64,000 bases of DNA. Origin: Trichobilharzia regenti (taxonomy: Eukaryota; Platyhelminthes; Trematoda; Strigeidida; Schistosomatidae). A model generated the notes under the pieces. The model searched no databases. It saw only the letters and a program-made list of their open reading frames with translations, and was not told the DNA's origin. A program made the position numbers and the translations under genes. The DNA lies in contig OX235263.1 of assembly GCA_944472135.2 (NCBI GenBank), positions 30,681,379-30,745,378 of the forward strand, written 5' to 3'. Positions 5,376-56,123 of the stretch are shown piece after piece; within the stretch, counting starts at the first letter, position 1, and every line of letters starts with the position of its first letter.

Positions 5376-5380
5376 GAGTT

Positions 5381-5574
5381 TGTGGTGATTGACAATTTCT
5401 ATCTCTGTATTGTTTAAATACTTACTGTTGACTGTTGATATGTTTCTTATATGAATTGCATTCTAATTCCGCTAAATACAAATTACTGATTGCTGCCCTC
5501 TCTGGGTTTTGATTAGATTCCTATAATTCCGTCATCCCGGTATATTAATATTTCAAGTACAATAAATTACTACA
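5381..5574 (+). repeat. 5' LTR of gag-only element
   Basis: 194 bp, TG...CA ends. It contains AATAAA at 5561-5566 close to its end, a likely polyadenylation signal for the element RNA. It is identical to 7016-7209 except for one base. Confidence 0.93.
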
Positions 5575-5587
5575 AATTGGCGTCGCG

Positions 5588-7027
5588 ATGGAGCTAAGTA
5601 ACCTGGGAAAATTTCCTCTTAATGGTTCTCCGCGGGAGATTGCTGATTATTTGGAATGCTTTGATGCGTGGTGCATTTCCAAGAATGTTCGGGATGATAA
5701 AATACCTGCTCATTTCATCACCGCTATTGGTCTTGATGCATATAGCCTGGTGAAGAATCTGGCGTTTCCAGATAAACCCATTTCTATGCCATATGCTAAG
5801 CTCCGTGAACTTCTTATAGATCACTTCCATGTAACTACTTTTGAGACCAGAGAGAGGGCTCACTTCAACAAACTGGTACGTTCTCCCAATCAGAAGATAA
5901 GAGACTTTATTCTACAACTCCAAATTCAAGCCTCAAAGTGTAATTTTGGAGATCAGCTGCATACACAACTACGTGATCGTCTAATTGCTGGAATCAACAT
6001 TCCTAAATTAGAGAAGGAGTTAATTCAGATTCCTTCTTGTACGTTTCAAACTGCTAAAGAGGTATGTATTACATATGAAGATGTCCATAATGAATACTCT
6101 GCTCCCACTACGTCAGTATCTGATGTCATGCTGTCTAAAGTCGAAAATACAAGTGTTCATGGAAAGAAATCCAAACTGCCGTCCACAGGTAATAGAATGC
6201 AGCGAGAGATCAAAAACATTAAACCGTGTTTATCCTGTGGAAAGTTACATCTACGAAGCACTTGCCGTTTTCGGAGTGCTAAGTGCTATAAATGTGGTAA
6301 AGTTGGACACATCAAGACGGTTTGCAGAAGTTCGAGTACTTATGTTGCTCAACATTCTTATAATTCTCCCAAGCTGTCTAGTAAAATGGAGTCTATGTGT
6401 CTTTCAACTTTTCAAAATACTCAAGCTAATCCAACGAAAACCTCCACTGCAAGTTCAGCAACGCAAGTATCAACTGTATTCAAAAATGAGGTAGCTAAGT
6501 TGCAATGTGAACTGTCGAAAGCACGAAAAGACCTGAATGAGATGAGAGAGCAACTGAATAAAATTGAGGAATTACTGCATATGCATAGACTACGTCTGGT
6601 GAATCCAGAGCATACAAGTTCTTGTGAAAGTCCTGCAAAACTATTCAAATCTCGAATTCTCAAAAAGCATCTGATGTCCACTACTTCTAATGTACATTAT
6701 TACAAAGATAATAACTACAGACCTTCTGTTGGAATTATACTACAAAAAATGGGAAATCGAGTGGTGAAGATATTAGACATCAAAGATCACTCAGTTCATA
6801 ACGGACACCTGGACAAAGTGACAATAAATGAAGTAGGTCGTTCCAATTATAATATTATTGATTCCGCTAATAATCCTGATTTTGTAGATAATTCAGAAAT
6901 AAGTCCAGATAGTACTGATGAAAATAATATCACAGAATCAGTTAGGTCGAAGCTACTTGCAAGCAAACCGAGACATCGTTATAAATACGCGAGGAGATAT
7001 TCGAGGTGTGGCGGATGTGGTGATTGA
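5588..7027 (+). CDS. Ty3/gypsy-type Gag protein, stand-alone
   Basis: 479 residues, intact, ATG 13 bp after the 5' LTR. Residues about 1-170 form a helical retrotransposon Gag region typical of metazoan Ty3/gypsy elements (ADYLECFDAWCISKNV, then FETRERAHFNKLVRSPNQKI). Two zinc knuckles follow at about residues 215-237: CLSCGKLHLRSTC (C-x2-C-x3-H-x4-C, a variant spacing) and CYKCGKVGHIKTVC (canonical C-x2-C-x4-H-x4-C). A short coiled-coil-like stretch lies at about 300-335 (heptads in AKLQCELSKARKDLNEMREQ), and the tail is basic (RHRYKYARRYSRCGGCGD). Its stop codon is inside the 3' LTR. No aspartic protease motif is present. The product should assemble particles that package RNA. Whether it packages only its own RNA or parasitises a relative is unknown. 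Confidence 0.9.
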   Translation: MELSNLGKFPLNGSPREIADYLECFDAWCISKNVRDDKIPAHFITAIGLDAYSLVKNLAFPDKPISMPYAKLRELLIDHFHVTTFETRERAHFNKLVRSPNQKIRDFILQLQIQASKCNFGDQLHTQLRDRLIAGINIPKLEKELIQIPSCTFQTAKEVCITYEDVHNEYSAPTTSVSDVMLSKVENTSVHGKKSKLPSTGNRMQREIKNIKPCLSCGKLHLRSTCRFRSAKCYKCGKVGHIKTVCRSSSTYVAQHSYNSPKLSSKMESMCLSTFQNTQANPTKTSTASSATQVSTVFKNEVAKLQCELSKARKDLNEMREQLNKIEELLHMHRLRLVNPEHTSSCESPAKLFKSRILKKHLMSTTSNVHYYKDNNYRPSVGIILQKMGNRVVKILDIKDHSVHNGHLDKVTINEVGRSNYNIIDSANNPDFVDNSEISPDSTDENNITESVRSKLLASKPRHRYKYARRYSRCGGCGD

Positions 7028-7209
7028 CAATTTCTATCTCTGTATTGTTTAAATACTTACTGTTGACTGTTGATATGTTTCTTATATGAATTGCATTCTA
7101 ATTCCGCTAAATACAAATTACTGATTGCTGCCCTCTCTGGGTTTTGATTAGATTCCTATAATTCCGTCATCCCGGTATATTAATATTTCAATTACAATAA
7201 ATTACTACA
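7016..7209 (+). repeat. 3' LTR of gag-only element
   Basis: 194 bp, 193 identical to the 5' LTR. The Gag reading frame runs 12 bases into it. The purine-rich stretch just upstream (6990-7015) is a weak candidate polypurine tract that overlaps the Gag C-terminal codons. Confidence 0.93.
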
Positions 7210-7214
7210 GAGTT

Positions 7215-12212: not shown

Positions 12213-13466
12213 TTATGCTCTCCTTATAAAACGACTTTTATATCTTTGACTCTTCACTACAGTTACTTTAGGCTTTCTAGTGTATTTTCGTTTGATTTTA
12301 ACATTAGGATTTGAAACATTGAAATCGCATACTTCATAGGTATATGTTGCACTTTCACCAAATGATGAAGTTACATCAGAGGTAACATTCTTACACGGGC
12401 ACACTCCACTACTTGTTATACATGTGGGAATTGTTTTTGCACCTGAAGGGAATGATGTGCTAGTTGTAGGCAGTAGTTGACTATGATCAGGGTATTGATA
12501 GTCTGTTAATTTCGGATTTCCATCTGTTTGTTTAGCTTCAGTGGAATTATAGAAACATTTACTGTTATCAACTGTATCACTCATTACCTGATAACATTCT
12601 TTACAATAATAATCAGAAATAGATTTATTTATTGGTATATCAAAATTGCTAGTTTCACTTAATTGCATTTCGTTAATTTGAAGGCTGTCAGCGTCTGATG
12701 TTGCATTATTCTGTGAATTATCCATTATAAAATTATCTCTGTTTTTCTTCAATTGTGACTCTTTTGTAATCATATGATTACGTAGGAAATATCGTGAAAA
12801 ATTTGAAAATAATGTAACACAATTTTTTAACCAAACAGGTAAGAGATAATTAATTCTATTCCTTATGCCTTCATTTCTCCATCTAGTTTTATTTGTATCT
12901 AATTCCATATTTCTTCTTTTCACAGGATTATTCACCAATGAATTGGATCTTTTCAAATGTTCACTTAATTGTTTTTCACTGCAATTTTTTAAATGATTAG
13001 ATCTACTGACTAATTCAGTTTTCGAAATACACATTTGATCAAATGGACACTGCTTTTTACAATTAGAACAATAAATGTCTTTAGAGTTGATACTTTTATC
13101 TCTTGAACGTTTACGTTTAACAGAAATATTGATACGTTCATTGGACCTATTATTATTATTATTGTTATTATTATTGTATACATGTGAAATATTATTTGGG
13201 TTTTGTAATTCCATTTCTGACTTAGTTTGTTTAACAACTTGTCCTGTATTGATTGATTCATATGGAAGACTGGAAATGTTATCAGTTAAGCAGTCACTTT
13301 CTTCATGATTGTCGACATTGATATTATTATTATTATTACCGTCATCATCGAATCCGGTAAGTGCATTATTATTTTTTTCTAATGTTTGATTAGAGATATC
13401 GATTTCATTGTCGAAGTCATCATTTTCACCAGTTGCATTGTTACTAGCCTCCTCGTCTTCATCCCC
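12213..13466 (-). CDS. C-terminal part of the CYHR1-like protein (in shifted frame)
   Basis: This frame is open from the stop at 13467-13469 down to 12213. It starts with an acidic segment (DEDEEASNNATGENDDFDNE) of the same composition as the end of the upstream ORF, and the two join if one G is added to the G run at about 13464. An internal ATG at 13214 would give 333 residues. Features are an Asn run (13145-13190), Cys pairs CSNCKKQCPFDQMC and YYCKECYQVM that could bind zinc, and a strongly basic tail (KIKRKYTRKPKV). It is probably the C-terminal 417 residues of the gene and not a separate one. Human CYHR1 is far shorter, so this extension is lineage-specific. Confidence 0.7.
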   Translation of the reverse strand, partial: GDEDEEASNNATGENDDFDNEIDISNQTLEKNNNALTGFDDDGNNNNNINVDNHEESDCLTDNISSLPYESINTGQVVKQTKSEMELQNPNNISHVYNNNNNNNNNRSNERINISVKRKRSRDKSINSKDIYCSNCKKQCPFDQMCISKTELVSRSNHLKNCSEKQLSEHLKRSNSLVNNPVKRRNMELDTNKTRWRNEGIRNRINYLLPVWLKNCVTLFSNFSRYFLRNHMITKESQLKKNRDNFIMDNSQNNATSDADSLQINEMQLSETSNFDIPINKSISDYYCKECYQVMSDTVDNSKCFYNSTEAKQTDGNPKLTDYQYPDHSQLLPTTSTSFPSGAKTIPTCITSSGVCPCKNVTSDVTSSFGESATYTYEVCDFNVSNPNVKIKRKYTRKPKVTVVKSQRYKSRFIRRA

Positions 13467-15472
13467 TCATTATCGTTCTCCTCCTCTTCATCATCATCAT
13501 CATCATCTTCAGCGGCAGTAGAAGTATCCTCCTCCTCTTCCTCCTCCTCTGCTTCTTCTTCTTCTCCCTCCTCTTCCTCTTCTTCATCATCGTCTTCGTT
13601 GTCATTATTATCCTCTTCATCAACTTCATTTCTTATCAGACCTAAATGTCTTACCATTAGATTATCTGTTATTATACTATTCTGCTGTATAGTATCATCT
13701 CCATAGTCATCAATAGAACCATTTGATACTCTAGTAAGCGTAACTATAATCGGATTTCTTAAATTATCAATATTCCCATTCATTGTATCACGATTTCGAT
13801 TTGTACTTGATAAAGATGTTGTAGTTGTTGTTGTAGTTGATGTATTATTTGAGAATAGACTGCCTAAAATTGGTCTTAAGAGACTATTAGTTGGTAATCC
13901 TAAAAGTCTTGTCCATGTACCTAATCTTAATTGATCTTGTGGAGTTGTAACAGTTACATCTGTCATTGGAGTAACAGTAGTAGTTGTTGTTGTTGTATTA
14001 TTATTGTCATTTTCATTAGTTATACCACTGTCAGAGCCAGGACTATTGTATACATGTGTATGATGATCTCCATTAGCATGCTCAAATCTCATTTGTACAT
14101 TTAATGGTTCATTAAGGCGTACACTTTGATTTCCATACAAATGGATTTCAAGCGGATCTTTATATTCAACAAATAATAAGAAATTTAATAAAATACAGTT
14201 ATTTTGACTTAGAATATCCAACATAGTTTGATCTCGATAAACATCTATGGATAAATCATCAAATGTGTATTGATGCTGATTTTTACTACTATCATTATTA
14301 GCATTGTTAGTAAGTTTAGGAGATGCATTACTCATTAATACATCAGTAGTATAACTAGATGATTGTTTATTTAATGCATCGAAATGTACTGAGTGCAGTT
14401 GGTCGTTTATATTAAATAATATATCTCCACATTTGAATGAATTCAAACATATGAGAAAATCCGTTGTTTTATTCGACTTAGTTTTAATCGAGTAGTCCAG
14501 TTTATTTAATTCACAGTTAATGTGAATTTCAACAGTCAAACGTTTAAAGTTACTCAGAAGTGTTGTGTTATTTGCTTGATAATTAACAGAATTAGCATTC
14601 ACGTCTGATGAATCATTATGGAATGCAGCAATTTGCTTTTGTATAATTCTTAATCCCATTGGATAATTATTTAATTTAGTTGATAATGTTTTACTAAATT
14701 GTATTTCATTCATTAAATATAATTCATAATGAATTAAGTTTCTCACCAGATTAGATTCAACATCTTCAACAGTTTTTTGTTTATAGTCACATTTTGAAAT
14801 ATGTGAATTTAAATCTTCATATTTACCTTTCCATACACATCCAACAAGATTATAACGACACGTTACATAACGATTTGGGCATAATTCATATTCATGTTGT
14901 TTAATTAATCTACGTGGTATAATATTGAAGCAGTAATGACATTCATGTGGTAATTCAGCAGTCATTTGTTCAGCTAGTAAACATCTACGTAATTTATACT
15001 GTAAATTAACACGACAACTAGGACATTTAGCTAAATTTGTTTGGCTTGACTGTTGTAATAATTGTATAGAACATTGTGAACATATTAAATGTCCATTTGG
15101 GCATTGATTTGTTTGATCTCTTATTTCTAAGCATACAGAACAAGTTAACAAAGATTTCAGTGTATCTAGTATATCGTTTTCGTTGAGTTTCGACTTAATA
15201 TAATTTCTGTGGTCATGTAAAAATGTTTCGTCATTGGCGTTAATATTTTCAAGGTCGTCAGTTTTTGAACTATCAGTGACAGTGAGTTGTTCTCCTTGTT
15301 GCTTCAGCTGCTGGTGATTAGTGTCATTATTATTGAATAAATTCTGTTTTAATATAGTTAACCTGGGTTGTTTATTCAATGGTTCTGAATGAAGTAATTT
15401 CTCTTTCTCCTCTTCTTGATTTGTATTACTATCGGAAATTGACTGTGAATTTCTCTTAGATAACTTCTGCAT
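13379..15472 (-). CDS. CYHR1: RING/TRAF-type zinc-finger protein, CYHR1 (ZFTRAF1)-like
   Basis: 697 residues from ATG 15472. The first 100 residues are Asn/Gln-rich. A RING-type finger spans about 111-153 (C111, C114, C124, H128, C131, C134, C150, C153; CPNGHLICSQC). A TRAF-like zinc-binding region follows (C178, C181, H193, C198, C205, C212, H224, C228; TCRYNLVGCVWKGKYEDLNS). This order and the phrase CSVCLE...CPNGHL...CPSCR match the CYHR1/ZFTRAF1 family, putative E3 ligases. Residues about 300-470 probably form its beta-rich C-terminal domain. Then come Thr/Asn runs and a long Glu/Asp run (about 610-670). The last 28 residues look like out-of-frame translation after the indel near 13464. 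Just upstream on the minus strand TTTTCATCTGTAATGCAG could be a 3' splice site, so the ATG may not be the true start. Confidence 0.85.
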   Translation of the reverse strand: MQKLSKRNSQSISDSNTNQEEEKEKLLHSEPLNKQPRLTILKQNLFNNNDTNHQQLKQQGEQLTVTDSSKTDDLENINANDETFLHDHRNYIKSKLNENDILDTLKSLLTCSVCLEIRDQTNQCPNGHLICSQCSIQLLQQSSQTNLAKCPSCRVNLQYKLRRCLLAEQMTAELPHECHYCFNIIPRRLIKQHEYELCPNRYVTCRYNLVGCVWKGKYEDLNSHISKCDYKQKTVEDVESNLVRNLIHYELYLMNEIQFSKTLSTKLNNYPMGLRIIQKQIAAFHNDSSDVNANSVNYQANNTTLLSNFKRLTVEIHINCELNKLDYSIKTKSNKTTDFLICLNSFKCGDILFNINDQLHSVHFDALNKQSSSYTTDVLMSNASPKLTNNANNDSSKNQHQYTFDDLSIDVYRDQTMLDILSQNNCILLNFLLFVEYKDPLEIHLYGNQSVRLNEPLNVQMRFEHANGDHHTHVYNSPGSDSGITNENDNNNTTTTTTTVTPMTDVTVTTPQDQLRLGTWTRLLGLPTNSLLRPILGSLFSNNTSTTTTTTTSLSSTNRNRDTMNGNIDNLRNPIIVTLTRVSNGSIDDYGDDTIQQNSIITDNLMVRHLGLIRNEVDEEDNNDNEDDDEEEEEEGEEEEAEEEEEEEDTSTAAEDDDDDDEEEENDNEGMKTRRLVTMQLVKMMTSTMKSISLIKH
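13464..13469 (-). other. Apparent single-base frameshift in a G run
   Basis: On the plus strand the run reads ATCCCCTCAT. Adding one C (one G on the coding strand) joins the acidic end of the upstream ORF to an acidic, Asn-rich continuation of 417 residues. As read, the upstream frame leaves its acidic composition right here. A homopolymer sequencing or assembly error is the simplest cause. A real allele or programmed shift is possible. Confidence 0.7.
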
Positions 15473-46615: not shown

Positions 46616-46763
46616 TGTCAATCACGTCTCATAAACCGTTAATGCCCAGCTCTTGCTACGCTCGGGCCCACGCTGTTCCTTGAAGATTTCAGAAACGCTT
46701 AGTTATAACGGACGAAAAAACCAAAACACCGATCTGCCGCTTGAGATTTCTTTATTGTAACAC
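46616..46763 (-). repeat. BEL LTR, left copy, outer half
   Basis: Matches 56268-56415 along its full 148 bp. It breaks at GTAACAC, where the CR1-like LINE is inserted. Confidence 0.88.
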
Positions 46764-49700
46764 ATATCGGTTATACCTTAGGGCAGGATTTTCACCAGCG
46801 TCAGTTAACAGAAACACCTGGAATCATGCATATAGCACGCATGATATCGGATCAATTCCTTGCTGGCATAGCGAACAGTCTACAGCTAGGGCAAGGCATA
46901 TTTCCCGGGAGATAGCTGACACAGTGTCGACACCAAACGCGGATACTAATATCTCTAAAATATTAATATCTGATTATCACACAGGTGTCTCTCACTGCAT
47001 ACCATATCCAAACGTAAGCCCATCCCTGACTACCACCTCAAAAATCTACCTGAAGTCTTCCTACGATCCAAAGATATTGGTAAATGAGTCTGATAACATG
47101 TATATAGAGGATACTCACGGATTATTTTACCAAGATGTTGTCCGCTCACTGAAACCACATAGCCAGTGTTTATCTATTATCCTAGTAAATACGAGATCAG
47201 TTCTAAGCAAACATTTAGCACTAAGTACAATAGCTTCTATATGCAGACCGTCATTGATTATGATCACCGAAGCCTGGTGCACAAGTGAAATCTCCAATGA
47301 CAGCCTAAGGATTGATAAATACAACCTTTTTCGCGGGGACAGACGGACAGGTCGTGGGGGTGGAACACTAATTTACTGTGAACAATCCATGTGTGCAACC
47401 CAGTTTAGTAACCCAATTCTGTCACAACTCAATGACTCGATCTGGGTCGAAATAAAAGTTGTCAGAAGTAAACCTATACTTGTGGGTTGTGTGTACCGGC
47501 CCCCTTCATCCAGCAGGGAATATGATAATATGCTTAGCAATATCTTTAATGTTACAGCCAATCTTCCTTTCAGTTATAAAATTATCGGAGGCGATTTCAA
47601 CTTGCCAGAAGTATCATGGTCTTCACTCCGAGGACCCCAAAGGTACGATAATCTCATAAATTCCATCGTCACAGGAGGGTGGACACAACACATAAATTCA
47701 CCCACTAGATCCGCAAATATCCTAGACCTTATTTTCACGAACAACATAACGCCATCTACCGTACATGTTGGACATGAATTTCCAGGTAGTGACCATAGAA
47801 TAGTAGTTTGTTCTTTTGACATCTTTCCTGAAACAAAACGCAGAGATGAAGCTGGCCAGATACCTATGAGATTGTACACACATGCTGACTGGGACTTGTA
47901 TCAGCACCTAATTAGATGTTCTAATTGGGACTCGTACTTTTCGAACCAGTCCTTAGATGCAATTCTTAACAACTTCTATCAGAATATTAACTCAATTCAC
48001 GACGTCATTGCACCCGAGAAGATTCTTAACTTCAGATTCCCCCAAAGTGATTATATTCCGACATCGTTTAGAAGAAGTCTACGTAAGCACTCAATAAAAT
48101 ACTACAGATATCATGACTTATCGTCATTAATTGCCATAACGTCCCTTCTCAGTAGAATTGAAGAGTTGAGAAATATAGGCCTCAGAAACAAAGAAATGCA
48201 GGCCATTCATGCACCGCATAACTCAGGAGAAATAGCCAAACTTTTTAAAAGTAGGTTGATGAACTCCAAAACACCCTATCCGAAAATAATATACTTAGAC
48301 GGCATTGCTTACGAAAATAATGAGGCGATATGTGAACTGTTTAGCAAGCACTTCGCCAGATTATACACCTTAGAGAACGATGAAGTCGTGGATTTCCCAC
48401 GTAAAACAGACGAATGTTTAAGTGACATAATTTTCACCACACATGAGATCGATAAAGCTGTCGCAAATCTTAAGCTTAGTAACACTACTGGCCCAGACGG
48501 TATATCTTCCGTTCTGCTGAAAAAAGGTGGTAATGACATGAGTTTACTCTTACTCAAGTTATACTCAATTTCATTAAGCGATGGGACATACCCTAACTGC
48601 TGGAAGAAGTCTTATATTGTACCTATCCATAAATACGGGCCTATAGCTGATATCAACAACTACCGCCCCATCAACATCACGTCTGTAGTTTCACGTGTAA
48701 TGGAAAAGATAGTTAAGACTCAAATCATTCAGTACTTGCTGTCAAATGACCTACTATCCCCATCCCAATACGGTTTCTTAAGTAGAAGGTCGTGCATTAC
48801 TTGCCACTTAGATTATTTTGACTACATCACACAAAGCATTGATAATGGGCGTTCGGTAACAACATTGTTTCTTGACGTTAGCAAGGCCTTTGATAAAGTC
48901 CCACATATCAGACTCCTAACAAAACTCCAATCCTACGGAATAACCGGAAATCTTCACAAATGGATAAGTTCTTTTCTCACAGAAAGAGAGCAATTAGTCA
49001 AAATCAACCACCAGTTGTCTTCCTCAAAGCCGATAACCAGTGGTGTAATACAAGGTAGTGTTCTTGGCCCTATTCTATTCCTCTTATTTATAAATGACAT
49101 AGTCTCTGTAATCAAGTATGGCAAGCCATACCTTTTTGCAGATGATCTCAAGATAGTATATGATTATGGGTACGGTGATATGAGCGTCGAAAGCAAGATC
49201 CAACAAGACTTAAATGATCTAGGCGATTGGAGCGAAAAGTGGCAACTGACTTTCAACCCAGACAAGTGCGGTATAACCCACCTTGGACGCTGGAAACCGA
49301 TAATGTGCCTATACATGTACGGGAAGCTCCTGTCAAAACTGAACACAGTCACAGACCTCGGGATAACATACTCAGATTTATCCTTTTCCGATCACGCAAA
49401 TAAGGTTGTATCTGACTGTAAACGACTTACTGGCTTTGTACTGCGTAACTTCTACACCCAAGAAGCAAGATTAGCTATATATAGGACATGTATCCGTCCC
49501 AAACTTGAATATTGTGCTCTCCTATTTAGTAACCTCAGGACTGTAGACAGAAAAAAAATCGAAAGTGTCCAGAGATTCCTCACGAAACGCATAATAGGGT
49601 TCGACCAACAAGTGGAATATGTTGACAGGTGTGTACGTCTGAAATTAGAGCCTCTGTGGTTAAGGAGAGTGAAGTGCAACCTATTTCTACTCTTCAAAGT

Positions 49701-49968
49701 CATTAGGAAACACTGCTACAGTAACTCATCCATAACTTGGGAAAATATTAAATCATATCAGCTGCGAAACCACGACTACCTTGTCAAGGTGGCTACCCAC
49801 AGAAAATCCATTAGGGCAAACTTTTTCACCATAAAATATTGCACTCTTTGGAACCAACTACCACCTGAAATAAGATGTTGTGAAAACCCTGATGGGTTCA
49901 AACGGAGCCTAGAAAGACACTTTAACATGTCCACCCTAGCTCGTCTAAAAGACCACAACTGTTGGTAG
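46741..49968 (+). CDS. LINE endonuclease/reverse transcriptase (CR1-like), intact frame
   Basis: 1,075 codons without a stop. An AP-type endonuclease lies at about 140-355: LVNTRS, MITEAW (catalytic Glu), VGCVYRPP, GGDFNLPE, SDHRIVV. Reverse transcriptase lies at about 560-830: GPDGISSVLLK, FLDVSKAFDKVPH, GVIQGSVLGPILFLLFINDI, and the catalytic LFADDLK. After that comes a C-terminal region with CIRPKLEYC and no RNase H or zinc knuckle. The layout and motifs fit CR1/Jockey-type LINEs. The frame opens with TTG inside BEL LTR sequence; the first in-frame ATG is at 47098, just before the endonuclease. The enzyme domains look functional, but initiation is uncertain because of the 5' truncation. 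Confidence 0.9.
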   Translation: MRFLYCNTYRLYLRAGFSPASVNRNTWNHAYSTHDIGSIPCWHSEQSTARARHISREIADTVSTPNADTNISKILISDYHTGVSHCIPYPNVSPSLTTTSKIYLKSSYDPKILVNESDNMYIEDTHGLFYQDVVRSLKPHSQCLSIILVNTRSVLSKHLALSTIASICRPSLIMITEAWCTSEISNDSLRIDKYNLFRGDRRTGRGGGTLIYCEQSMCATQFSNPILSQLNDSIWVEIKVVRSKPILVGCVYRPPSSSREYDNMLSNIFNVTANLPFSYKIIGGDFNLPEVSWSSLRGPQRYDNLINSIVTGGWTQHINSPTRSANILDLIFTNNITPSTVHVGHEFPGSDHRIVVCSFDIFPETKRRDEAGQIPMRLYTHADWDLYQHLIRCSNWDSYFSNQSLDAILNNFYQNINSIHDVIAPEKILNFRFPQSDYIPTSFRRSLRKHSIKYYRYHDLSSLIAITSLLSRIEELRNIGLRNKEMQAIHAPHNSGEIAKLFKSRLMNSKTPYPKIIYLDGIAYENNEAICELFSKHFARLYTLENDEVVDFPRKTDECLSDIIFTTHEIDKAVANLKLSNTTGPDGISSVLLKKGGNDMSLLLLKLYSISLSDGTYPNCWKKSYIVPIHKYGPIADINNYRPINITSVVSRVMEKIVKTQIIQYLLSNDLLSPSQYGFLSRRSCITCHLDYFDYITQSIDNGRSVTTLFLDVSKAFDKVPHIRLLTKLQSYGITGNLHKWISSFLTEREQLVKINHQLSSSKPITSGVIQGSVLGPILFLLFINDIVSVIKYGKPYLFADDLKIVYDYGYGDMSVESKIQQDLNDLGDWSEKWQLTFNPDKCGITHLGRWKPIMCLYMYGKLLSKLNTVTDLGITYSDLSFSDHANKVVSDCKRLTGFVLRNFYTQEARLAIYRTCIRPKLEYCALLFSNLRTVDRKKIESVQRFLTKRIIGFDQQVEYVDRCVRLKLEPLWLRRVKCNLFLLFKVIRKHCYSNSSITWENIKSYQLRNHDYLVKVATHRKSIRANFFTIKYCTLWNQLPPEIRCCENPDGFKRSLERHFNMSTLARLKDHNCW

Positions 49969-54129: not shown

Positions 54130-54594
54130 AGAATTGACTTCAAGCTTTATTTTTCCCATATATCTGTATTACATTCATCTGACGTCTGGGTTTTTTGTTA
54201 ATGCGAAGACAATATTTCTATATCTCTTTATGTGCTACACAAACAGACTTTATAGCAGACTGTTCCGACTGACTCTAATGTCAGAGAGAACAACCAAACT
54301 GTAAGTCCATTATACATCAAATTATGTGTAATTTATATAATAACTTATCCATGCCTGTACAATAGGTATGTTCCTGCATAAACAGGAAGGAATATATTAT
54401 TATTATTAAAACAATATTTATGCATGCCTATACAATTGGTGTGCCCTACATAGCTAGGGAAAAAATGTACTTTATTATATTATCGTTACTAAATATGCTT
54501 ATTAATATTATGTATAAACTATCGAATTGATGATGCCTGTAAACTGGCGTCCCTCATGTAAAAAATGAGAATATATATTATTATTATTATTATA
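54130..54594 (+). repeat. LINE 3' tail inserted in BEL gag
   Basis: Matches 39322-39728 (TTTTTTGTTAATGCGAAG, CCATGCCTGTA, and the end GATGATGCCTGTAAACTGGC followed by (ATT)n at 54578-54594). It directly abuts the broken end of the BEL gag frame. Confidence 0.8.
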
Positions 54595-56123
54595 TCAGTT
54601 GATGAAGTTAGCGGTGGATCAAAAGCTGTTGTTGATCGACTTTCAGAAATTTGTCTACCTGCAAGACCACCACCACTGCTGTCTTTTACTATCAGCTCAG
54701 GTTTAGCACTAGCATCTGATGATAGGTGGGCTACATGCTGATCACTCCCACTGACGGTCTCACAAGTATGCATGCCTTCTACAACTGCATCTGCATTTAT
54801 TTCTACTTCACGTTCAAGTTGTACAGAAACTTTGTTCAACTTAGCAGTAGTAGGCATATCCCTCATCTCATCATGATCAACCAAAGACAACTGTGAAGTA
54901 TCATGATCATTACCACAAATATTCAATTTACCGTCAACTTTATCATTTTCAAACTCTTTAATAACAGAAGTAGACAATTTTGGTTCCTCCTCGCAAATCC
55001 TAAGAGGTTCTATATCTTCACTCTGAATAGTAATACCTTGTAAACTTGTAGGGTCAGAACTGCACTCTGAAGCAGCAACTCTATGCTGTGACACTCTATT
55101 CAACAATGGCTTACCAGTTGCAACTACAGACTTCTTCACCGCACCGTTATCGTCACACAATTCGGAGTCAGACCTGGAGTTTACATTTGCATTTGTACGC
55201 ACTTCTTGCAAACGTGTGAAACACAACCGTGTTTGTCTTGCATCTTGTAACTTATCGGTTGAGGATGTACTACGAAACCTGTTGCACTCACTAAGTTTAT
55301 ATGCATTATTAGACATCATGGAGCCTTCTCGATATCCACCTCTCTGAGGCCTATTCGTCATCAATGATTGCGTTTTACCCTCAGACTGCTCTATTCTAGG
55401 GGTGAGATGTAATAGACTGGCGAACTTGCTCATAGATTGATTGACACTACCTTTTACTAGTTTCAGGATATCATCAAATTTGGGCTCGATACCTTCATCC
55501 TCTATACGATAGCTTATTTTTACCCACTTCCTTTGCAGCCGAGTAGGTAGGCGTCTCGCAATTACCTCTAGGACTGAGCTGGAGTTGAGGTCACTCACGC
55601 AATTCATAGAAATCAAGGTATTCTTGTAAGTCATAAGATTATCTAAAAACTCAGTAAGTGCCTTGGAGTCATCTTGAAGTTGACTGCCGTTACCTTTGAC
55701 AGCTTCGTATACGTTCCTTACAATCATTGAAGGTCTTCCAAACCTTTGACGTAATATGCTCATAGCCTCAGCGTATCCGTCATTAGGGGGCATGAGCTTA
55801 CTGCACTGCTCTTGAAGCTCTTGAAGCATCTCCAGTGCAATACCTCATCAAATACATTAACTTCATTTCATCAGTTAACAAAAGCCACTTAACATGGTTT
55901 CAAATTCTTTCACAAACTGTAAATAATCAGCTGGGTTTCCGTCGAAACACCGCGATTCTAATTTAGGGAGTTTGATGTTTCTATTATCCCTGAACGGCGA
56001 AACAGTAACATCAACCATGTCATGCTTAACATCAGACACATCGTTACAATTAACAGACAAGTCACCATGACTTACTTTCCTGTTTGCATCCAAGACACTC
56101 TGTCCCTTCTTTGACCCGAGCAT
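54595..56123 (-). pseudogene. BEL/Pao Gag, frameshifted and truncated
   Basis: The minus-strand N-terminal part (56123-55875) ends KLPKLESRCFDGNPADYLQF, the conserved start of BEL/Pao Gag (DUF1759-like). After two frame breaks at about 55850-55870 it continues with ELQEQCSKLMPPNDGYAEAM, LRQRFGRPSMI and RLPTRLQRKWVKIS to about residue 420. The zinc-knuckle region was not found. The end is replaced by antisense LINE tail at 54594, adding a short Ile run. Confidence 0.85.

Follow-up and report, generated by a model that had tools for sequence, protein, structure and literature searches.

The window, a 64,000-nucleotide stretch of the genome of the bird schistosome Trichobilharzia regenti, contains a short LTR retrotransposon that is probably a non-autonomous satellite, mobilised in trans by a Ty3/gypsy-type Trichobilharzia element and making its own capsid protein. 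Most likely, a defective element kept its capsid gene, lost its enzymes, gained part of a worm coiled-coil gene, and spreads with the enzymes of a complete relative. Sequence comparison gives the anatomy of the element, the donor of its coil, its partner, its copy number and its recent insertion. The satellite reading draws on the matches across the fusion, the two-place donor, the copy numbers, the termini and primer site common to satellite and partner, the capsid fold, and the pN/pS of Gag.

Structure of the element

A preliminary description of the sequence had proposed an intact, young, LTR-flanked and gag-bearing element, and the LTRs, the target site duplication and the open frame bear this out (Table 1). 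The outer LTRs, described as 194 bp long with one difference, are indeed 99% identical with a single mismatch; the perfect GAGTT duplication is present on both flanks, and the 479-codon ORF is unbroken. About 20 nt upstream of the 3′ LTR lies GCGAGGAGA; by eye, no clean purine run directly adjoins the LTR.

Table 1. Features of the satellite element, with positions in the window.
Feature	Position	Strand	Basis
Target site duplication GAGTT, left	5376..5380	.	read directly
5′ LTR, 194 bp, TGTGGT...ACTACA	5381..5574	+	LTR comparison
Candidate primer binding site TGGCGTCGCGATGG, overlaps start codon	5578..5591	+	conserved with partner
479-codon ORF (Gag, coiled coil, integrase tail); stop inside 3′ LTR	5588..7027	+	ORF list, protein search
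Gag-derived part (capsid fold and zinc knuckles); homology to partner gag until seam AAGTTCAG	5588..6458	+	
First zinc knuckle CX2CX3HX4C, residues 214-226	6227..6265	+	by eye, alignment
Second zinc knuckle CX2CX4HX4C, residues 233-246	6284..6325	+	Pfam, below cut-off
Captured coiled-coil segment, shortened form, 143 nt	6459..6601	+	partner and genome alignments
Internal deletion of ~300 nt relative to long-coil form, approximate place	6529..6549	+	breaks in alignment to L084-L086
C-terminal tail of integrase, residues 339-479, extends into 3′ LTR	6602..7027	+	protein matches
3′ LTR, one mismatch to 5′ LTR	7016..7209	+	LTR comparison
Target site duplication GAGTT, right	7210..7214	.	read directly

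The element has two LTRs and lacks reverse transcriptase, RNase H and integrase core domains. The claim that it encodes only Gag and nothing else does not hold: residues 1-290 are Gag, residues 291-338 form a coiled coil and residues 339-479 are the C-terminal tail of an integrase, so that about 40% of the ORF is not Gag. Residues 321-479 match the integrase tail of a T. regenti protein (P0014) at 71%, and residues 323-477 match an S. rodhaini integrase at 32%. The alignment between satellite and partner breaks precisely at element nt 1078 and 1222, and the coiled-coil segment has no counterpart in the 27 partner loci whose alignment spans the two seams. Both junctions of the coil are in frame, with only a few bases of similarity, as would be expected of template switching.

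The two zinc knuckles previously noted are recognisable by eye; in Pfam, the first was not detected and the second fell just below the cut-off. A structure model predicts a capsid fold at approximately residues 10-170, which by structure comparison is common to PNMA2, MOAP1, PEG10 and Arc. With the whole model as query, the best PDB hit in Foldseek had E 6.9e-3, so none reached E ≤ 0.001; the top rows are retroviral-type capsids all the same. The tail and linker are modelled with pLDDT below 50.

Protein databases list satellite ORFs under T. regenti as CCHC proteins (P0001-P0005, in clusters of 22 and 27 members), and mobile-element proteins thus inflate the gene set of the worm. Three other ORFs in the window, all classified by eye, are a 1075-codon frame with the look of a LINE-type endonuclease and reverse transcriptase (46741-49968), a 697-codon frame with a RING/SIAH-like cysteine pattern and long acidic repeats (13379-15472, minus strand), and a 436-codon frame resembling the gag region of a Pao/BEL-type element (54519-55829, minus strand).

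A high-copy family

The genome searched comprises 954 Mb. With at most two mismatches, a 24-base pattern spanning the shortened coil occurs 1,474 times (740 + 734), and the reversed-pattern control not at all; this is the copy count that the preliminary description had asked for. All of 12 long-coil loci compared are at least three bases off this pattern; two are exactly three off, so a few long-coil copies may be among the 1,474. Rather than being a single internal deletion among full gag-pol elements, the finding which the preliminary description had named as speaking against its reading, the short form makes up a separate family; a pattern across the gag-protease junction of the partner has 315 matches (control 0).

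In a search with the LTR, 40 of 1,369 first-look candidates were scored and 30 loci were fetched, representing 26 distinct elements. All 30 have the same structure of approximately 1.83 kb, with internal gaps in a single locus, a recurrence well past what chance would give. Among 14 elements with both outer ends readable, 13 have a 5-bp target duplication, each of different sequence; L079 has none. When the window protein was compared with the genome, 87 of the best-scoring 89 matches (of 6,882 first-look candidates) were without an in-frame stop. The full frame is open in 31 of 34 distinct satellite copies, and in 23 of the 26 chosen by LTR alone; the sample is not random, 26 copies having been chosen by LTR identity to the window and eight by protein score. 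At C1:113784152-113798785, ten short-coil pattern matches lie on one strand, about 1,626 bases apart, as a head-to-tail array whose units presumably share LTRs.

The complete partner element

The search for an autonomous element with the same LTR and primer site, as the preliminary description had proposed, led to a Ty3/gypsy-type gag-pol partner with mostly the same LTR ends and primer site. It has a single gag-pol frame: of the 81 integrase matches scored, 36 fall within an open frame of 1268 codons, long enough for gag and pol together. In copy L048 the order is protease, reverse transcriptase, RNase H, integrase, and the closest PDB sequence match is Ty3 Gag-Pol. P0014 itself is 100% identical to a stretch of the genome.

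Twelve partner copies were compared in detail. Where both ends could be read, 11 of 12 5′ LTRs begin with TGTGGT and 10 of 12 end with ACTACA. The 18 bases after the LTR, AATTGGCGTCGCGATGGA, are identical in eight copies, and their core TGGCGTCGCG is present in 11. An exact 5-bp duplication stands at the computed edges of four copies. In nine, gag starts at the same place and the frame is open to the end of the fragment; the remaining three have no ATG there, and one copy has a diverged primer site, which count against the satellite reading. Partners in wheat have been recognised by criteria of this sort (PMC9744471).

The partner gag ends with CAGGCAAGT, which resembles a GC-type splice donor and has 25 exact matches in 30 loci (L033-L062). 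The splice-donor-like end of the partner gag is the exact start of the satellite fusion (seam AAGTTCAG/GCAAGT). The partner may thus resemble barley BARE in producing a Gag RNA by splicing. Some partner copies are seemingly in tandem (L068/L056 and L072/L059), the 3′ LTR or upstream flank joining another copy directly.

Origin of the coiled-coil segment

Two forms of the satellite exist: one with approximately 157 coiled-coil codons, which is the older, and the window form with approximately 48, which lacks about 300 nt of the long coil in alignment to L084-L086 and is much more numerous. Many genomic loci carry the long coil, some in open frames of 500-600 codons, among the matches listed for the 150 candidates scored of 2,042. 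In P0011, which like P0014 is filed under T. regenti, about 150 coil residues stand at the equivalent place, and this part is 100% identical to a stretch of the genome.

The long coil matches sequence from the interior of a single exon-like stretch in a worm locus present in two copies. P0027 has the coil in common with the satellite, preceded by a different, non-Gag coiled coil. Its residues 87/89-279 are contiguous at only two of 139 places, C2:100565741-100566313 (96%) and C2:100769070-100769648 (94%), with no in-frame stop over these residues at either. The remaining P0027 matches listed begin at residue 159, the left junction, or later, apart from two small exceptions at 146 and 153. A 27-mer crossing the unbroken left junction is found only at the two C2 places, with no mismatches, and its control gave none. 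At the locus, the frame runs beyond both junctions and then meets GGTAAGT. Residues 15-80/93 of P0027 are matched 1.5-1.7 kb upstream of both places, which suggests an intron; these upstream exon-like matches have one stop codon each, and two further fragments of the upstream type exist. The gene model of the donor is a putative one.

Searches of Pfam and PDB with the donor protein yielded weak coiled-coil matches only. A protein search with the donor-only part found only itself among proteins of 0.55-1.75 times its length, a range that leaves room for a longer orthologue. A host gene at C1:58.17-58.31 Mb, where hits are split, was considered as donor and rejected: the flanks, gag and integrase tail, are those of long-coil element copies, one with a nested insertion. 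That region (C1:58171284-58309000) is a cluster of long-coil copies, at least one of them split by a nested insertion, and looks like a segmental duplication.

The splice-donor-like end of the partner gag would suit capture by splicing at the left junction. On the donor side, however, this junction lies inside the open exon-like stretch and is preceded by purines rather than pyrimidines, so that template switching is tentatively favoured over splicing.

Exchange between copies

The satellite gags form one clade apart from the 12 partner gags (support 100). The window copy is up to 96.5% identical to partner copies in the capsid region, up to 90.2% in the LTR and up to 87.0% in the tail, whereas the values for three long-coil copies are 78-81% in LTR and capsid. 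The four-gamete test fails in 546 of 1,225 pairs of shared sites, corresponding to at least 16 exchanges, and 39 of 48 shared variants of satellite Gag are also present in the 12 partner gags. From the partner-like capsid region, the four-gamete failures and the shared variants, it seems that satellite and partner exchange sequence in the 5′ half; either gene conversion or template switching within particles that hold both RNAs may be responsible.

Satellite variation is mostly a reshuffled shared pool. In 23 of 31 intact copies there is no private variant in 1,437 coding bases, although some of these have LTR pairs two to three mismatches apart; private singletons are clustered, 35 of 46 falling in three copies. 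Beside the window copy, the eight copies L076-L083 lack private coding variants, although the two LTRs of a copy are as many as three mismatches apart. LTR pairs have 0-3 mismatches in satellites (11 pairs: window copy, L031, L032 and eight others) and 1-20 in partners (12 pairs). Exchange between copies spoils dating by LTR pairs, and the mismatches are therefore left unconverted to years.

Selection on Gag, tail and coil

Pooled pN/pS within satellites is 0.17 for Gag and 1.05 for the integrase tail, compared with 0.25 and 0.14 within partners; the tail has thus been released from constraint in satellites. The pooled Gag events, 40 synonymous (S) to 32 non-synonymous (N), compare with an expectation of approximately 18.5 S : 50.3 N. 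The signal weakens once variants also found in the 12 partner gags are set aside: private Gag variants are 10 S : 14 N (P about 0.08), of which those shared between copies are 6 S : 3 N (P 0.015, a small sample) and the singletons, which look neutral, 4 S : 11 N. Gag and tail differ in S:N when pooled (P 0.028), with P 0.36 for private variants alone. The long coil has a pooled dN/dS of 0.65 over 10 copies, a partly biased value as these were mostly picked for open frames. The preliminary description had proposed selection on Gag. The strong pooled signal, absent from the tail, agrees with this, but the private variants and the overlap with partner variants do not secure it. Given that overlap and the heavy recombination, selection on the satellite's own Gag is suggested and unproved, and the constraint may be imported.

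Proposed mechanism and alternatives

From the alignments, a single-ORF gag-pol ancestor has lost about 2.4 kb encoding protease, reverse transcriptase, RNase H and the integrase core, and this has been replaced by a coil homologous to the two-copy cellular locus, in frame with the integrase C-terminal tail. We infer that the chimeric Gag forms particles, that partner reverse transcriptase and integrase act in trans, and that the coil has a role. Satellite RNA would be translated into a Gag-coil-tail protein, which would assemble into particles via its capsid domain, alone or mixed with partner Gag-Pol, and bind RNA through its knuckles. The partner reverse transcriptase would copy the satellite RNA from the common primer site, and the partner integrase would insert the copy. 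Exchange with partner gags, by template switching or gene conversion, would hold the satellite 5′ half near the current partner. For the coil, the likeliest role is that of a module for oligomerisation or spacing, retained because it preserves the reading frame across the fusion. As far as the protein is concerned, the integrase tail looks like a passenger.

The most serious competitor, though not the favoured reading, is a pure cis parasite, whose RNA is packaged by partner Gag and whose ORF plays no part in its spread, staying open because the copies are young and recombine with functional partner gags. The 39 variants also present in partner gags, the weak signal in private variants, the neutral-looking singletons and tail, and the youth of most copies, in which decay is not yet to be expected, all suit it. 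It sits less well with the S:N ratio of private variants shared between copies, with a foreign coil read through an open frame in most LTR-picked copies, with long-coil copies open over 500-600 codons and their dN/dS, and with the degenerate coding sequence of non-autonomous Angela copies in wheat (PMC9744471).

It is rather unlikely that the satellite is a helper instead of a parasite, supplying excess Gag to a partner with a fused gag-pol frame so that both gain. A single-frame partner has no visible route to extra Gag, and TR-GAGs feeding Gag to others have been proposed (PMC8704663). Barley BARE, also single-ORF, obtains a Gag-only RNA by splicing (PMC3735527); the splice-donor-like end CAGGCAAGT means that this partner may likewise splice its own Gag.

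Transfer of the coil in the opposite direction, from retroelement to two-copy locus, is improbable. The segment is in both, and the direction is read from context: to either side of the segment the locus carries on as coiled coil without a change of frame, with neither gag nor integrase tail there, and full gag-pol relatives have no coil. A domesticated capsid gene of the worm, to which the intact capsid frame and the fold in common with PNMA2 and its relatives might point, is more improbable still, as the copies in this genome are dispersed and numerous, with young LTRs and target duplications, and not a single-copy, LTR-less locus. A one-off internal deletion of a gag-pol element can practically be dismissed; the lineage did arise by internal deletion, but the number of pattern matches, the distinct duplications and the foreign insert contradict it.

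A bolder extension of the satellite reading, less likely than not, is that the captured host coil is part of a chimeric Gag under selection and has turned the element into either a self-packaging parasite that now dominates or a source of Gag for a partner whose single frame yields no excess of it. On this view the recent burst followed, or was driven by, the reduction of the coil from about 157 codons to about 48.

Relationship to known systems

The proposed likeness to TR-GAGs stands in part. Like those of plants, the satellite has two LTRs, a single Gag-headed ORF, no reverse transcriptase or integrase core, and an autonomous relative in the same genome. Unlike them, it lives in an animal, and its ORF joins Gag to a host coiled coil and an integrase tail; this coding beyond GAG falls outside the definition used by Inpactor, GAG or GAG plus protease only (PMC6022998). 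One plant TR-GAG has been observed transposing (PMC8704663). Judged by title, the open-access papers found on TR-GAGs all concern plants.

The wheat families RLG_Sabrina and RLC_Angela are similarly high-copy, dependent families with partner-like LTR ends and primer site; they include semi-autonomous gag-bearing variants, and some Sabrina elements carry unique short coding segments replacing GAG-Pro, while non-autonomous Angela copies, unlike the satellite with its open fused frame, have degenerate coding sequence (PMC9744471). The trematode Ty3/gypsy-type elements CsRn1, PwRn1, Saci and Boudicca resemble the partner in having Gag, protease, reverse transcriptase, RNase H and integrase in Ty3 order; the partner has one frame, as does PwRn1 (PMC2582038). 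The satellite knuckles, CX2CX3HX4C and CX2CX4HX4C read by eye, differ from the CHCC Gag motif of the CsRn1 clade (CX2HX9CX3C; PMC2582038).

Searches of the open-access literature found no gag-bearing satellite of an animal that has captured a host domain, and to our knowledge the satellite has no animal counterpart. Capture of host sequence by retroviruses and retrotransposons is familiar from oncogene transduction and maize Bs1. ORF capture also occurs in LTR elements of bdelloid rotifers (PMC5408684). In all of these, as in the satellite, cellular coding sequence lies in frame inside a retroelement and element genes have been lost. The satellite differs in that the captured piece is an internal coiled coil of a structural-type protein, placed between Gag and integrase tail, and then multiplied to about 1,500 copies.

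Significance

The satellite is a naturally replicated case of a retroelement capturing host sequence. With the donor locus, a complete ancestor-like partner, an older long form and a recent short form in one genome, both its origin and the steps that followed can be read. Gag and integrase tail within the same copies offer a clean internal comparison for the question of whether a satellite must make its own Gag, which also arises for the TR-GAGs of plants. If the chimeric Gag does form particles, it would be a natural capsid protein bearing a host domain.
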